In this document: one piece after another, positions 7,825-13,161 of the stretch
Numbering within the stretch: the first letter of the stretch is position 1
Layout: every line of letters starts with the position of its first letter
Origin: Phormidesmis priestleyi BC1401
GTDB taxonomy: Bacteria > Cyanobacteriota > Cyanobacteriia > Leptolyngbyales > Leptolyngbyaceae
Assembly: GCF_001650195.1 (NCBI RefSeq)
Contig: NZ_LXYR01000001.1
Location: forward strand, 72,358 to 136,357
Reading direction: 5' to 3'
Length of the DNA stretch: 64,000 bases
The notes under the pieces: generated by a model
Database searches by the model: none
What the model saw: the letters and a program-made list of their open reading frames with translations, nothing else
What the model was told of the DNA's origin: nothing
Position numbers and translations under genes: made by a program

Positions 7825-8268
7825 TCAACTTGGGAGAAGAGACAACACGACAGGGGCGTTAATGGTGCGATCGTGAATCGTTGTTTCTAATTCTTGGTGA
7901 TAAACGCCTGATGGAATTAAACCACAGCTTTCTTCTTGAATTGCGGTCAACGTTTGCTGCACGACACAAGATTCTAAAATTAAATCGTCATCTAGAAATA
8001 GAGCATAGGGAGCCGTCACTTGATCTAAGAGAAATTGGCGATGCTCTGCCATGCCCTGACGCGGTAAATGCTTGTGAATTTCGATCGGGTGACCACGCGA
8101 TCGCAAGACTCGCAAAACAGACTGCACCTCAGCGATCGAGCCAGCATCAAAGTCTTCGGTCTGATCAGGCGAAAGTCGCGACAGGTTTGGGAAATAAGAC
8201 TCGCGATCGTATATCGCCAACGCTGAAGGGTGATTGTAAGTAAGAATGAGAATATCAACCGTTGCCAT
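7825..8268 (-). pseudogene. decayed family 2 glycosyltransferase
   Basis: The reading frame from ATG 8268 has 147 codons. It begins like a GT2 (ATVDILILTYNHPSALA) and later has the acceptor/donor region LPRQGMAEHRQFLLDQ and the metal motif FLDDDLILES. Between ALA and DQTEDFD the expected family sequence (ASLISQTCRDFRL) is in another frame of the same strand. That implies two compensating indels. After QEESCG the protein diverges and stops about 33 residues on, well short of a normal GT2 of 270-300 residues. It follows the methyltransferase gene on the same strand and is most likely non-functional. Confidence 0.65.
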
Positions 8269-8354
8269 TTCACACACCTTAACGACATTTAAATATGAGA
8301 AATAGGTAATGAGTTTATTCACTACCTACGAACGCCAAATTTATGACGTAGATG

Positions 8355-9098
8355 TCATAGAGATGTCATGACTCGGATCAGCTCAGTCGATAAATTTAGG
8401 TCAGAAACATCACGCTTCTTGAACAGAACGCCTGCCAAGAAGTAGATGTTTCCAGAGTAAAAAGCTTTACGGCTTTTGCGTAGCTCAGAAATGTGATTTT
8501 TGACTTTGGGTTCAGAACTGTAGTAACCAAATTTTAGCGGTGTAATCATGAAATCAGCAACGCTGTAATTATTGGCAAGCGCATGAGCGATCGTACCAAC
8601 TGGATTAGAATAACTAGACACTAGCAGCATCACATTCGGATAGTCTAGCGAAAGCAGTCGATTTGTAATCGTTGCACCATCGACTCCACCGTGCAGCAAC
8701 GGCATTGCAATGTTGTCATCAGGCGCAGGAATGTAAGGTGGATTGGCAATTAGATATTGAGCATCCGATTGGAATGTATCAAAGAACGACTGATTGCGAA
8801 CCGAGTATTGATGGCTTATGTCATGGTGAGCGATTCTAGACTGCGCAATTTGACACGCTGACGGATTCAGTTCGTAGCCATGAATCCTGCCGTCAAAACT
8901 TACTCTAGTCAAAGAGTTAATAACCGGAGTTCCATCACCGCAGCCAAACTCTACAACCAGATCAGAATTGCTGCACTGATTAAATACTAAACGCTCTAAA
9001 CAATGGGAATAGAAATGAGATTCTTCAGGACAAAAGAAAACCTCCTTCTCAGAGAAGGATTGCGAAAATCCAGAAGAGCGCAATAATGTTTCAGTCAA
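8355..9098 (-). CDS. class I SAM-dependent methyltransferase, NPPY type
   Basis: The protein has 247 residues. SAM-binding motif I is VVEFGCGDGTPV (near residue 48), and motif IV is ANPPYIPAP (near 118). The NPPY form is typical of enzymes methylating amide or exocyclic nitrogens (HemK/PrmC, N6-adenine) and of many small-molecule methyltransferases. There is no target-recognition domain, so a restriction-type DNA methylase is unlikely. It lies between a diiron-oxidase-like gene and a decayed glycosyltransferase on the same strand. The substrate is unknown. Confidence 0.8.
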   Translation of the reverse strand: MTETLLRSSGFSQSFSEKEVFFCPEESHFYSHCLERLVFNQCSNSDLVVEFGCGDGTPVINSLTRVSFDGRIHGYELNPSACQIAQSRIAHHDISHQYSVRNQSFFDTFQSDAQYLIANPPYIPAPDDNIAMPLLHGGVDGATITNRLLSLDYPNVMLLVSSYSNPVGTIAHALANNYSVADFMITPLKFGYYSSEPKVKNHISELRKSRKAFYSGNIYFLAGVLFKKRDVSDLNLSTELIRVMTSL

Positions 9099-9147
9099 GG
9101 TAATGACCTCACTTTAATGATGGAGTTATTAACGGGGAAAGTTTGGC

Positions 9148-9174
9148 GAAGGGCAAGCAATTTACTTGCCCTTC
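9148..9174 (-). terminator. hairpin after the diiron-enzyme gene
   Basis: A perfect 10-bp inverted repeat GAAGGGCAAG...CTTGCCCTTC with a 7-base loop. It begins 4 bases past the stop of the 9179-10306 gene and lies before the methyltransferase start. There is no clear T-run in the minus direction, so it may act as an attenuator or 3' stabiliser rather than a strong terminator. Confidence 0.5.
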
Positions 9175-9178
9175 AAGA

Positions 9179-10306
9179 CTAAGGTGCCGAAATGACGGGC
9201 AGATGGGCGGTTTGTTCACCCTGACGGATAATCTTTACTGCGGCTGCACTGGCTCGATCGCCCATCAGTTTTTCCTGGTCATAGCCCAACAAGATTTGCC
9301 AAGCCTGATCGGGATACATCTTAACGAGAGGCAGTGTGACGCTTTCGATCATCCAGCGTCCGTGTCGCTCGTCTTCTTTGATATGCAGATCCCAATAGCC
9401 CATTGCCCCATCTGAAAGCTGCAGGCGTTTTGCGGCTGCCAAGTAGGTACGATAAGCCGAAGGTCCAGCGACTTCAAAGTAGGCAAGTCCGCCGTTATAG
9501 CGCAGAAAATGACGCTTGCACTCGGTCAACAAGAAGTTATGGTTGATGCTAGCCAACACTTCCCAAGGCACTAGCTCAAAATATGCCTCTGGTTGAGTGC
9601 TGAGTCCGAGTTCAGTCAACATTTGGGCAAAGAACGTGGAATGCTTGCGAGACAGGCGACCGTTGCCATATTCTTCGAGCAGCACTTTGGTCAGAGTGGC
9701 TTGCACTTCGTTGGCTGCACCTCCCAAAATGCGAGACAGACGACTGGCTTCAATCAGCCCATCAAATGAGGTGATTGCCAGCAAATAACGATAGCCCTCA
9801 AACGTCATCTGCTTACGCATATAGTCAGCGTCGATCGAGAGCGATGGGTCAAGATCAGCGGCAAAGCGATCGAGCAATGCCTGCTTTGCATCCAACGATT
9901 GATACTGATCGACATTGAGTTTTGATAATTCCCACGTTTGCCAAGCGGTTTCAATCCGATCGCGAACTTGATGCAGGTAGAGCGATCGCTCGTTGGTGTA
10001 GTGCCGCAGGTCATCGTACCAAAAGAGATTAAGCCGATTAATACGGTAAAGCACTCGCTGAACAAAGCGATGAGCCGCCTCCGATGACAGCGTTTGATAG
10101 GCTTCTTCTAATGCAGAAGTGAGCGCATTTTCAAAGAGGTCAACCGTGGACGAGTGAGCCTGTAGATTGCGATCTAAATCCTCGACTTCGATGAGTTTGA
10201 CAAACGCATCTTCAGCCGTGTAGTAGGGATTATGTTTTAGCTGAGTTTCTAGGGTTCTAGGAATCACCCGTGCGGTTTCTGGAAATGCAACTAAGCTACC
10301 TTGCAT
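9179..10306 (-). CDS. heme-oxygenase-like diiron (iron-containing redox) enzyme
   Basis: The protein has 375 residues and is almost all helical. Candidate ligands follow the heme-oxygenase-like diiron oxidase pattern: EEYGNGRLSRKH (E211/212 and H222), E278 in YFEVAGPSAY, and DLHIKEDERHG (H308, D312, H315). This H-x3-D-x2-H arrangement with an earlier E...H pair is what family members such as UndA-type oxidases use to bind iron and activate O2. The N-terminal 150 residues are an extra helical region of unknown role. Its substrate cannot be read from sequence. It lies upstream of a methyltransferase on the same strand. Confidence 0.8.
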   Translation of the reverse strand: MQGSLVAFPETARVIPRTLETQLKHNPYYTAEDAFVKLIEVEDLDRNLQAHSSTVDLFENALTSALEEAYQTLSSEAAHRFVQRVLYRINRLNLFWYDDLRHYTNERSLYLHQVRDRIETAWQTWELSKLNVDQYQSLDAKQALLDRFAADLDPSLSIDADYMRKQMTFEGYRYLLAITSFDGLIEASRLSRILGGAANEVQATLTKVLLEEYGNGRLSRKHSTFFAQMLTELGLSTQPEAYFELVPWEVLASINHNFLLTECKRHFLRYNGGLAYFEVAGPSAYRTYLAAAKRLQLSDGAMGYWDLHIKEDERHGRWMIESVTLPLVKMYPDQAWQILLGYDQEKLMGDRASAAAVKIIRQGEQTAHLPVISAP

Positions 10307-10422: not shown

Positions 10423-11427
10423 TCATCTAAATGTATTTTGCTTTACCAACTTAGGACTGTCTTCAGCTAGAGCCGTTTCATCTATTTGTTGCGCGATCGG
10501 TGATGCAGCTTCACAAATCACAGGAGTCAGCTCGTTCACGTTCGTAAATAACCATTCGTCTTGTAATTTTTTGATTGCCAATTCTTTTTGCCTGGCTTCT
10601 ACCTCGATCCAAGGGGCATGACGATAAGCACTCGGCATCGCTGTAATATAATCACTGTGACGCTGATTGCTAAAGGTTTCTGCCCCGTTTGAGATATGCA
10701 CTACCTGCCATTCTGGAGTCGCCCACGTCGATCGCGCCGCTTCTAGCATTTCTGCAACGGTAGGATCTTCATAAGTGTTTACCTGTTCGTGAATCACATG
10801 ACGGTGGGCATCAAATAACATTGGCACGTTTGCTGACTGACACACGGCAAAAATATCCTGGCTGCTGTAGGTATATTCATCATTTTCTAGCGTCAGCCGC
10901 GATCGTACATTGTCAGGCAATTCTTGAATCACGCGAATCAATCGCTCCGCTCGATCGCCCTTGCCGCCGTGAATATTCATCAATGCCCACGGTGATTGAG
11001 GGAGTCTCAAAAAATCGAGGATTCGGGCGTGAGTTTTGAGAATTTTGATGCTGTTGTCGATCACGTCAGGGCGATCGGAACTCAATACTACAAACTGATT
11101 GGGATGCAGCACTAACCGGATGTTTAGCTGGATTGCCCGATCGCCGACTAATCCCATTGCTTCCTCAAATTCCGCTAAGATTCGCTCACCAATCACATCA
11201 TCAGCAAATGGAAACAGCGCAGAACTGAGGCGATAGAGTCGAATATTGTTGAGGTTGCAGAACTCGATCGCCCCGCCCAAACGCCGCAAGTTGTCGGCAT
11301 AGAGTTCTCGCAGCATTCGCTCTTGTTCTAAGGAGTCAAACTGTAAGAGTCGCTTGCGCGTTACGGTTCGATAACGGACTGCCTTAGATGCTGTAATGCA
11401 GACGAGTCCTAGTTTGGGTGTCATCAT
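10423..11427 (-). CDS. uvsE: UV damage endonuclease UvsE/UvdE
   Basis: The protein has 334 residues and a TIM-barrel fold. It has the family start KLGLVCITAS and metal-site segments LHPNQFVVLSS, MNIHGGKGD, LTLENDE, MLFDAHRHV and HISNGAE. UvdE incises 5' to cyclobutane dimers and 6-4 photoproducts and gives photoexcision-independent UV repair. A sensible start is the second ATG at 11424, because two ATGs are adjacent. The start overlaps the stop of the upstream small gene, so the two are probably translationally coupled. Confidence 0.92.
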   Translation of the reverse strand: MMTPKLGLVCITASKAVRYRTVTRKRLLQFDSLEQERMLRELYADNLRRLGGAIEFCNLNNIRLYRLSSALFPFADDVIGERILAEFEEAMGLVGDRAIQLNIRLVLHPNQFVVLSSDRPDVIDNSIKILKTHARILDFLRLPQSPWALMNIHGGKGDRAERLIRVIQELPDNVRSRLTLENDEYTYSSQDIFAVCQSANVPMLFDAHRHVIHEQVNTYEDPTVAEMLEAARSTWATPEWQVVHISNGAETFSNQRHSDYITAMPSAYRHAPWIEVEARQKELAIKKLQDEWLFTNVNELTPVICEAASPIAQQIDETALAEDSPKLVKQNTFR

Positions 11428-11639
11428 TCCTCGATTTTCTTGAGCGATCCGGGCTTATGAATGGCTTCTTTTCCCGTCTTGTCGCTCTCGACTAGATACT
11501 CAGGATCCTCTTTTGAAGCATCAAAGTGATGTCCTTTCAACTCAGTAGGCTCAGTCAATTTTTTCTTAACAATGCCTTCGACCATGTTACCAGAACTATT
11601 CCACTCAACTCGATCGCCCTTCTTAAATGTCTCAGTCAT
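11424..11639 (-). CDS. DUF2945 / HVA1 Tudor-like small protein
   Basis: The protein has 71 residues from ATG 11639; a TTG at 11648 is less likely. The sequence FKKGDRVEWNSSG...EGIVKKKLTEP...YLVESDKTGKEAIHKP is the pattern of the DUF2945 (hypervirulence-associated, Tudor-like) SH3-barrel family. The stop overlaps the uvsE start by 4 bases, so the two form a coupled operon. Function is unknown; coupling to a UV endonuclease hints at a nucleic-acid or stress role (inference). Confidence 0.85.
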   Translation of the reverse strand: MTETFKKGDRVEWNSSGNMVEGIVKKKLTEPTELKGHHFDASKEDPEYLVESDKTGKEAIHKPGSLKKIEE

Positions 11640-11820
11640 CGTCTGCAAATCTTTTGTTTTTACAGCTTTAAAGATATTGAATTGTGCGATCGCTCACCTC
11701 TATCCTTTGATTGTGAATGTCGATCGCTCTTCATCGATCGTCTCCTCCTCTAGGCAGGTGTCATGAATAACACTCACTTTCTAGAGTCACAAAAGATGAG
11801 CACTCTACAGTCAGCCCACC

Positions 11821-13161
11821 ATGATCTATGACTATGATTTATTTGTGATTGGGGCAGGTCCGGGGGGCTTGGCAGCCGCAAAACAAGCTGCACACTATGG
11901 CGCACGAGTCGCGATCGCTGAAGCCAATCACCTCGGCGGCACCTGTGCAAACATGGGTTGCATTCCCAAAAAACTGATGGTGTATGCGGCTGATTTTGGT
12001 CACTTAGCAGAAGCCTCTAAAGGCTATGGCTGGAGCGGAGAACAGCCTCACTTTAGTTGGACAAAATTTGTCAAAGCGAGAGATCAGGCGATCGAGCGAT
12101 TCCGTCAATCTCATGAGCGATCGCTGACCAAACTGGGAATTCGTCTGATCCGCGATCGGGCACAGTTCATCGATGCCCACACTCTAGAAGTCGGTGAACA
12201 AAAAATCACTGCCGATCACATCTTGATTGCTGTGGGAGGTCACGCCAGCAAGCCCGACATTCCCGGCATCGAACACGCGGTTACGTCTAAAGAGATGTTT
12301 CACCTCCCACAGTTGCCTAAAAAAATTGCCATTATTGGCGGTGGATATATCGGCGTTGAGTTTGCAAGTGCGCTCCATGCCTTCGGGACAGACGTATTTT
12401 TAATGAGCCACGAACACTGCATCCTAAATGGATTTGATCCCGCCATTAGCACTGCTATTCATAAAGGATTCACTGACCGAGGCATCCAAGTTGCCTGCAA
12501 CACCACCGCCGAAGAAATTATTCAGACCGATCGAGGATTGCAGCTAATTTTGTCAGGCGACTCCGCAGATATCACGGTTGATTTAGTGCTGTGCGCGATC
12601 GGACGCACTCCCAATCTAGAAAATCTCGGCTTAGAACAGGTCGGCGTTGAAATCGATCAGCGTGCGATCGCGGTCGATGCTCACAGTCGCACCAGTCAAC
12701 CCAATATCTTTGCTGTTGGAGACTGCACCGATCGCAAACAATTAACTCCGGTTGCACTATCAGAAGGTCGGGCGTTTGCTGACACGACTTTTGGTGACTA
12801 CGCCTGGACAGTGGACTATGACAGCGTGCCATCGGCGATCTGCTGTCGCCCCGAAGCCGCCTCTGTGGGAGTGACAGAGCCAGAGGCGCAGACTCAACTA
12901 GGCGATGCTGTTCGCTGTTATCAAAGCGAGTTTCAGCCGTTATTTCACAGCTTGAGCGGTCAAAATGAAAAAGCTTTAATTAAGCTCATTGTCAACGGAG
13001 AGGACGATCGAGTGATTGGCATTCACATCGTCGGCGATCATGCAGCAGAAATCTTACAAGGATTCGCATTGGCAATGAAACAGGGAATCACAAAGCAGGA
13101 ACTCGATCGGGCGATCGGGATTCATCCATCCTCTGGTGAAGAGCTTTTCTCGATTCGTTGA
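11821..13161 (+). CDS. gor: glutathione reductase
   Basis: The protein has 446 residues, standard for the family. The N-terminal FAD motif is DLFVIGAGPGGLAAA. The redox disulfide is GGTCANMGCIPKKL, followed by the NAD(P)-binding segment IAIIGGGYIGVEFAS and NIFAVGDCT for FAD. The C-terminal interface carries the catalytic His (IGIHPSSGEE). The enzyme reduces glutathione disulfide in the cytosol. The MVYA after IPKKL is typical of Gor rather than lipoamide dehydrogenase. It is monocistronic. Confidence 0.92.
   Translation: MIYDYDLFVIGAGPGGLAAAKQAAHYGARVAIAEANHLGGTCANMGCIPKKLMVYAADFGHLAEASKGYGWSGEQPHFSWTKFVKARDQAIERFRQSHERSLTKLGIRLIRDRAQFIDAHTLEVGEQKITADHILIAVGGHASKPDIPGIEHAVTSKEMFHLPQLPKKIAIIGGGYIGVEFASALHAFGTDVFLMSHEHCILNGFDPAISTAIHKGFTDRGIQVACNTTAEEIIQTDRGLQLILSGDSADITVDLVLCAIGRTPNLENLGLEQVGVEIDQRAIAVDAHSRTSQPNIFAVGDCTDRKQLTPVALSEGRAFADTTFGDYAWTVDYDSVPSAICCRPEAASVGVTEPEAQTQLGDAVRCYQSEFQPLFHSLSGQNEKALIKLIVNGEDDRVIGIHIVGDHAAEILQGFALAMKQGITKQELDRAIGIHPSSGEELFSIR

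Follow-up and report, generated by a model that had tools for sequence, protein, structure and literature searches.

In the SznE/SznF system of streptozocin, a methyltransferase is paired with a heme-oxygenase-like diiron oxidase/oxygenase (HDO), SznE being the arginine N-methyltransferase partner of the HDO-cupin N-oxygenase SznF. NPPY methyltransferases include the N-methyltransferases HEMK2/N6AMT1-KMT9, Mtq2 and PrmC, and NPPY enzymes can modify proteins and nucleic acids too. Functional validation covered only about a dozen HDOs when a 2026 review was written (PMC13108848, section 4), which also describes the 3H/4C ligand class for SznF; section 8 of the same review presents HrmI as a lysine side-chain N-oxygenase, and RohS, SznF and HrmI are all N-oxygenases by the titles of their structure entries or by that section. 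In addition, passages of PMC13232832 describe DtpC of Acinetobacter, a protein with an HDO-like domain and six core ligands that guards A. baumannii against desiccation-induced oxidative stress. Literature on the HDO-methyltransferase pair considered here was absent among the matches listed in our searches, and the putative widespread two-gene pathway of cyanobacteria proposed below has apparently not been described before.

The locus in Phormidesmis priestleyi BC1401

The window, i.e., the whole stretch of 64,000 nucleotides that was analysed, contains the following features:

9179-10306, minus strand: HDO gene, 375 aa; heme-oxygenase-like diiron oxidase/oxygenase resembling the N-oxygenases HrmI, RohS and SznF
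9147-9175, minus strand: hairpin between the HDO and methyltransferase genes, 13 pairs, -19.7 kcal/mol; putative terminator
8355-9098, minus strand: gene for a SAM-dependent class I methyltransferase, HEMK2/PrmC-like, 247 aa; TTG start in the ORF list
7825-8322, minus strand: GT2 pseudogene, ORF of 165 aa; probably outside the module

As an earlier note on this DNA had claimed, these are three consecutive minus-strand genes with gaps of less than 90 bases, namely 80 bases between the HDO and methyltransferase genes and 32 between the methyltransferase gene and GT2. The same note had proposed that, given a hairpin after the HDO gene, this gene can also be transcribed alone. The hairpin is real, but its reading as a terminator was unsupported, since no T-run lies behind it and it was absent from the output of the terminator scan. 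Moreover, stems of at least 8 pairs were found 3′ of the HDO gene in 14 of the 64 co-directional named relatives versus 14% of single-base shuffles, indicating that the hairpin is no clearly conserved feature, and it was dropped as a conserved terminator on all these grounds. Genes for UvdE and glutathione reductase are located upstream of the pair (window 10423-13161). Phormidesmis priestleyi ULC007, with an HDO 89% identical to that of the window, stands nearest among the best 80 of the 266 related places in named genomes.

Ligands and predicted fold of the HDO

In a profile search, the HDO matched PF14518 (E 4e-28) with 98.8 bits versus a gathering score of 28.9. All seven ligand positions of the SznF type are present, namely E186, E212, H222, E278, H308, D312 and H315, and each of them is invariant in the 93 sequences compared (88 A-type and 5 B-type, the window included), which bears out the full ligand set claimed for the diiron protein. 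The motif of three His and three carboxylates (E, E-x9-H, H-x3-D-x2-H) is formed by E186, E212/H222 and H308/D312/H315, again in 93/93. The remaining position, E278, is likewise Glu throughout and aligns with SznF Glu281 (chain numbering), which we take to be the extra metal ligand of that enzyme. Judging from the alignment, the window HDO would carry the additional Glu in the auxiliary helix that distinguishes 3H/4C HDOs of the SznF type, its ligation being predicted.

The AlphaFold model of the HDO, built from 50 sequences, reached a mean pLDDT of 80, with values below 50 at residues 183-198 and 212-221 that make it uncertain around part of the metal site. It matched HrmI with Z 30.1 (rmsd 3.3, 329 residues), spanning residues 29-363, so that the two folds correspond along their full length and share the helical domain at the N-terminus; RohS (Z 24.3 over 274 residues), SznF (23.5) and FlcD (22.3) followed, and values were lower for BesC (16.2), CADD (15.6) and UndA (13.7). 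In agreement with this ranking of the N-oxygenases HrmI, RohS and SznF ahead of BesC, CADD and UndA, the solved structures matched by the family profile at E 0.01 were RohS, SznF and HrmI. However, the fold does not fix the reaction, since FlcD, which also matches well, is a methine-excising HDO. HrmI and RohS have the HDO ligand motif in common with the window protein as well, but differ from it in that they share only 17-20% identity with it and that the window HDO stands in a two-gene setting with an NPPY methyltransferase.

A 150-residue extra domain had also been attributed to the diiron protein. This sequence is real, but it is not extra: given the whole-model match to HrmI, it represents the N-terminal domain of the HrmI/SznF branch, common to both enzymes, and its interpretation as a novel addition was ruled out. 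In a single-pair comparison with the locus L091 of Phormidesmis priestleyi, where dS was above 1, dN/dS was 0.057 for the HDO, 0.088 for the methyltransferase and 0.095 for UvdE as a control. A plasmid search yielded HDO matches in 33 records, with identity below 33% in the 20 listed, and one methyltransferase match of 29% identity.

The NPPY methyltransferase

The methyltransferase, METHYLTRANSFERASE, gave weak HemK-family matches (NCBIfam PRK14968, E 3e-9; HemK family, E 8e-8), which remained far below the curated cut-offs, with 31.0 bits versus 199.1 for PrmC and 31.6 versus 115.5 for the HemK family. The NPPY motif is found at residues 119-122, and none of the 49 aligned members, i.e., the window protein plus 48 of the 79 named methyltransferases, deviates from it. 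Additionally, a conserved CPEES stretch at residues 23-27 presumably resembles the substrate loop of PrmC/HEMK2.

The model of the methyltransferase (pLDDT 85) gave its best VIA Z scores with N6AMT1/HEMK2 (17.2, rmsd 2.7, 182 residues), PrmC (16.4) and Mtq2 (16.3), so that fold and NPPY motif are common to these N-methyltransferases and the window enzyme. However, many unrelated methyltransferases reach Z 14-16, and the top of the Foldseek ranking is taken by small-molecule methyltransferases such as RebM and geranyl diphosphate C-methyltransferase, at a TM of about 0.5; therefore, the likeness to HEMK2/PrmC is a statement at the level of the fold. The assignment to the class I NPPY methyltransferases proposed earlier held, with the motif observed and the Rossmann fold predicted. 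Apart from its scores, the enzyme differs from PrmC/HemK in comprising only 247 aa and in having a distribution tied to the HDO.

The comparison with SznE/SznF, in which a methyltransferase is likewise paired with an HDO, also reveals differences, since the window methyltransferase is HemK/PRK14968-like by profile and HEMK2/PrmC-like by model rather than PRMT-like, and the domain profile search gave no cupin match in the window HDO. By analogy, the pair may work like SznE/SznF, but it does not belong to that type, as it has another methyltransferase class and no cupin.

Conservation of the pair in cyanobacteria

Among the best 80 of the 266 related places in named genomes, the methyltransferase adjoins the HDO in 79, with 64 co-directional pairs (median gap 170 bases) and 15 convergent, tail-to-tail ones (median 87), the one named exception being L120, where the methyltransferase is on another contig. 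The earlier note had made its reading depend on such adjacency in relatives, which was thus found. As the two genes persist as neighbours even tail-to-tail, the link between them is not mere co-transcription.

The co-occurrence of both genes was evaluated in three overlapping samples, in which relatedness inflates all counts. In the family-level sample (58 genomes), an HDO was found in 22, a strong methyltransferase match in 20 and both in 19, with the HDO only in G004, G020 and G032, and the methyltransferase only, in a truncated frame, in G015. The phylum-level sample (386 genomes) contained an HDO in 30 genomes and the methyltransferase (E < 1e-25) in the same 30, after exclusion of 47 genomes with weaker matches (E about 1e-9 or weaker), which are probably general HemK-like proteins. 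In the class-level sample (388 genomes), both genes occurred in 78, the HDO only in 11, the methyltransferase only in 2 and neither in 297, corresponding to a Fisher p of 6e-67 that ignores phylogeny. Carriers of the pair in this last sample belong to 14 family codes.

The genes are also close to each other in most carriers. In the class sample, they lie within 600 bases in 72 of 78 genomes, fragments and the remnant of G113 counted, 63 times on the same strand and 9 times on opposite strands; the other six are G028, G443, G512, G534 (about 0.9 kb between the genes), G543 and G591. In the phylum sample, about 1.45 Mb of the same contig separates them in G351, and in G240 they are on different contigs, each close to a contig end; in G108 and G395, only a fragment of the HDO is matched. 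G108, with a genome of 3.3 Mb, keeps a fragment of each gene, 36 bases apart (L171:3481-4239), which represents joint decay, while in G395 the HDO fragment lies beside an apparently full methyltransferase; in G113, an HDO remnant is found beside the methyltransferase and an intact HDO elsewhere. Regarding the unpaired cases of the class sample, the 11 HDO-only genomes comprise six of genus g4, three of g181 and two incomplete ones of f23 (G587, 76% complete; G602, 82% complete, with an HDO fragment only), and the two methyltransferase-only genomes hold a truncated frame and a fragment, respectively, and no HDO. Altogether, co-occurrence and adjacency strongly support that the HDO and the methyltransferase form a functional pair.

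These distributions also bear on a quite improbable alternative, according to which the methyltransferase is a protein N-methyltransferase that targets the HDO as a maturation step, so that no methylated metabolite is made. Such a role would suit the closest folds by VIA Z, as HEMK2, Mtq2 and PrmC act on proteins and the entry titles name eRF1 and RF1, and it would suit the fact that a complete methyltransferase without an HDO was not found in the 388 genomes. However, the HDOs of the HDO-only genomes retain all seven ligand positions, so that this subfamily, at least, can do without the methyltransferase, and no target motif was identified in support of the HDO as target.

A third conserved partner was not found within 6 kb, where the next neighbour families, as defined by simple ORF calling in loci cut at contig ends, reach at most 35 of 81 loci (window included). 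The commonest of these, which from their sequences we take to be an FtsI-like protein and its neighbour, look like inherited synteny in Nostocales. In many families of cyanobacteria, the HDO has thus retained one and the same partner, suggesting a general rather than strain-specific role, and the lack of any other conserved neighbour makes the search for a substrate tractable.

The adjacent GT2 pseudogene

In comparison with full-length homologues of 268 and 280 aa, the window GT2 shows two small frame-compensating indels. These had been recognized earlier and are real, but larger damage had been missed, i.e., an in-frame loss of about 120 codons that includes the GED stretch of intact homologues and leaves the catalytic domain incomplete. 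In the nearest relative (L057/L091), the GT2 copy is broken differently, by a stop and other changes. Based on such damage, the three genes had been interpreted as a pathway that is now losing its last step, and GT2 is indeed the next gene after the methyltransferase, with a broken copy both in L091 and in the window, and likewise in L094, L095, L096 and L099, where full-length homologues adjoin the methyltransferase (4 of the 80 named loci); the check for intact copies beside the pair placed them in g3 and g6.

However, among the 16 genomes with a strong GT2 match, the pair has it as a neighbour in only 7 (G001, G003, G006, G021, G033, G053 and the genome of the window). In the other 9, the homologue sits among the same glycosyltransferase-cluster gene families, whose domains in L080, the one cluster read, are GT9, PfkB, SDR and GT4-SIS, and in G053 part of such a cluster is found just upstream of the HDO. 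Furthermore, the HDO-methyltransferase pair persists without GT2 in most of the 80 named loci. Since GT2 is beside the pair in few relatives and elsewhere belongs to a glycosyltransferase cluster, it is probably no last step being lost, and its location argued against retaining it as a pathway member; the three-step pathway is largely refuted and appears highly improbable. Most likely, GT2 is a decaying bystander, an unrelated local neighbour of the pair. The observation of the earlier note was thus confirmed as a widely conserved two-gene module beside an ordinary pseudogene, and its interpretation was partly supported, the functional pair of HDO and methyltransferase being retained and the loss of a last step not. 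A broken neighbour gene should be assigned to a pathway only after its neighbourhood has been tested.

Proposed activity of the module

It is considered fairly probable that the two genes constitute a module in which N-oxygenation by the HDO and N-methylation by the methyltransferase act on one small substrate. The HDO would bind two irons and, in a reaction that consumes O2, N-oxygenate a small metabolite of the amine or guanidine type, giving a hydroxylamine, nitroso or nitro product. Either prior to or following this step, the NPPY methyltransferase would methylate a nitrogen of that molecule, the substrate being presumably shared by both enzymes. HDO-only genomes exist, whereas the two methyltransferase-only genomes of the class sample hold remnants; this asymmetry hints at a methyltransferase that requires the HDO and possibly catalyses the later step.

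A rather unlikely alternative is that the HDO, like DtpC, protects the cell against stress, namely desiccation and oxidative damage, and that the methyltransferase makes or matures a protective product. By their genus names, many of the named carriers belong to Nostoc, Scytonema, Brasilonema, Gloeocapsopsis and Phormidesmis, which are soil, rock or lichen groups. The genes for UvdE and glutathione reductase near the window pair would also fit a protective function, but of the 81 loci (window included) just 6 have UvdE close to the pair, among them L091 and L093-L096. In addition to the role of DtpC in desiccation tolerance, the passages of PMC13232832 give katE, and not a methyltransferase, as the operon partner of dtpC, and the two proteins are likened by description only. 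Stress protection and the chemistry of N-oxygenation and N-methylation are perhaps no rivals, the former being what the product is used for.

HDO subfamilies and loss of the methyltransferase

The division of the HDOs into A and B subfamilies was derived from quick trees, in which the g4 HDOs grouped with the intact HDO of G113 (SH-aLRT 100) and, in a smaller tree, the HDOs of g4, G113, G452, G567, G508 and G512 split from 17 A-type rows with a support of 100. An initial comparison of five B-type with 88 A-type sequences revealed nine positions that are fixed at 97% or more in the latter and differ in the former. Of these 9, 8 are no more than seven residues away from a ligand, which applies to 37 among the 122 fixed positions other than ligands (p 0.0003, with a radius picked after the data were seen). 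Near-ligand substitutions as a mark of methyltransferase loss were nevertheless dropped, because most of them mark the B subfamily, including its members with a methyltransferase, which is a convergent neighbour in G508 and is located elsewhere in the genome in G028, G113 and G512; B-type HDOs also occur without it.

Positions 303 and 313 vary inside the B subfamily, and only Lys 313 tracks the loss of the methyltransferase. This residue was found in all seven methyltransferase-less B-type HDOs examined (L074, L076, L077, L184, L186, L188 and L189), with G563, G597 and G602 left out of the typing, whereas position 313 is Glu in the 88 A-type sequences and Glu, Glu, Ala and Gln in the four B-type HDOs with a methyltransferase; the A-type HDO of G587, from an incomplete genome, also has Glu. 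The Lys 313 pattern fits a substrate shift upon loss of the partner, although perhaps only one or two independent events lie behind it. As a tentative extension of the N-oxygenation/N-methylation module, it is possible that a common amine or guanidine metabolite is converted into an N-methylated, N-oxygenated and perhaps NO- or nitroso-releasing stress or signalling compound, and that a subfamily changed its substrate and then lost the methyltransferase. If true, this widespread two-gene pathway would provide a stress or signalling metabolite rather than a strain-specific product.

In the g4 loci L074-L077, one gene family (NifU_N in L074) adjoins all four B-type HDOs, and a second family (MOSC in L074) is found beside those of L074, L076 and L077; MOSC proteins can reduce N-hydroxylated compounds. 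More distant HDO homologues, whose ligand positions appear altered in the alignment, are present in G452 (L185:4729-5751) and G508 (L190:1241-2332), and these are perhaps pseudoenzymes.

Other HDO-methyltransferase arrangements in cyanobacteria

Two further arrangements, in L181 and L182, indicate that the pairing of a methyltransferase with an HDO comes in more than one form in cyanobacteria. In G151 of family f28 (L182:2880-5523), a PRMT-like gene is followed by one for an HDO-cupin protein, the match of which to SznF (E 1.6e-154) covers almost the entire protein; this represents a SznE/SznF-type pair in a cyanobacterium. In G323 (L181:3024-5852), a PRMT5-like methyltransferase gene and one more ORF precede an HDO with a C-terminal Rieske fusion, and this Rieske domain is possibly a built-in electron donor.
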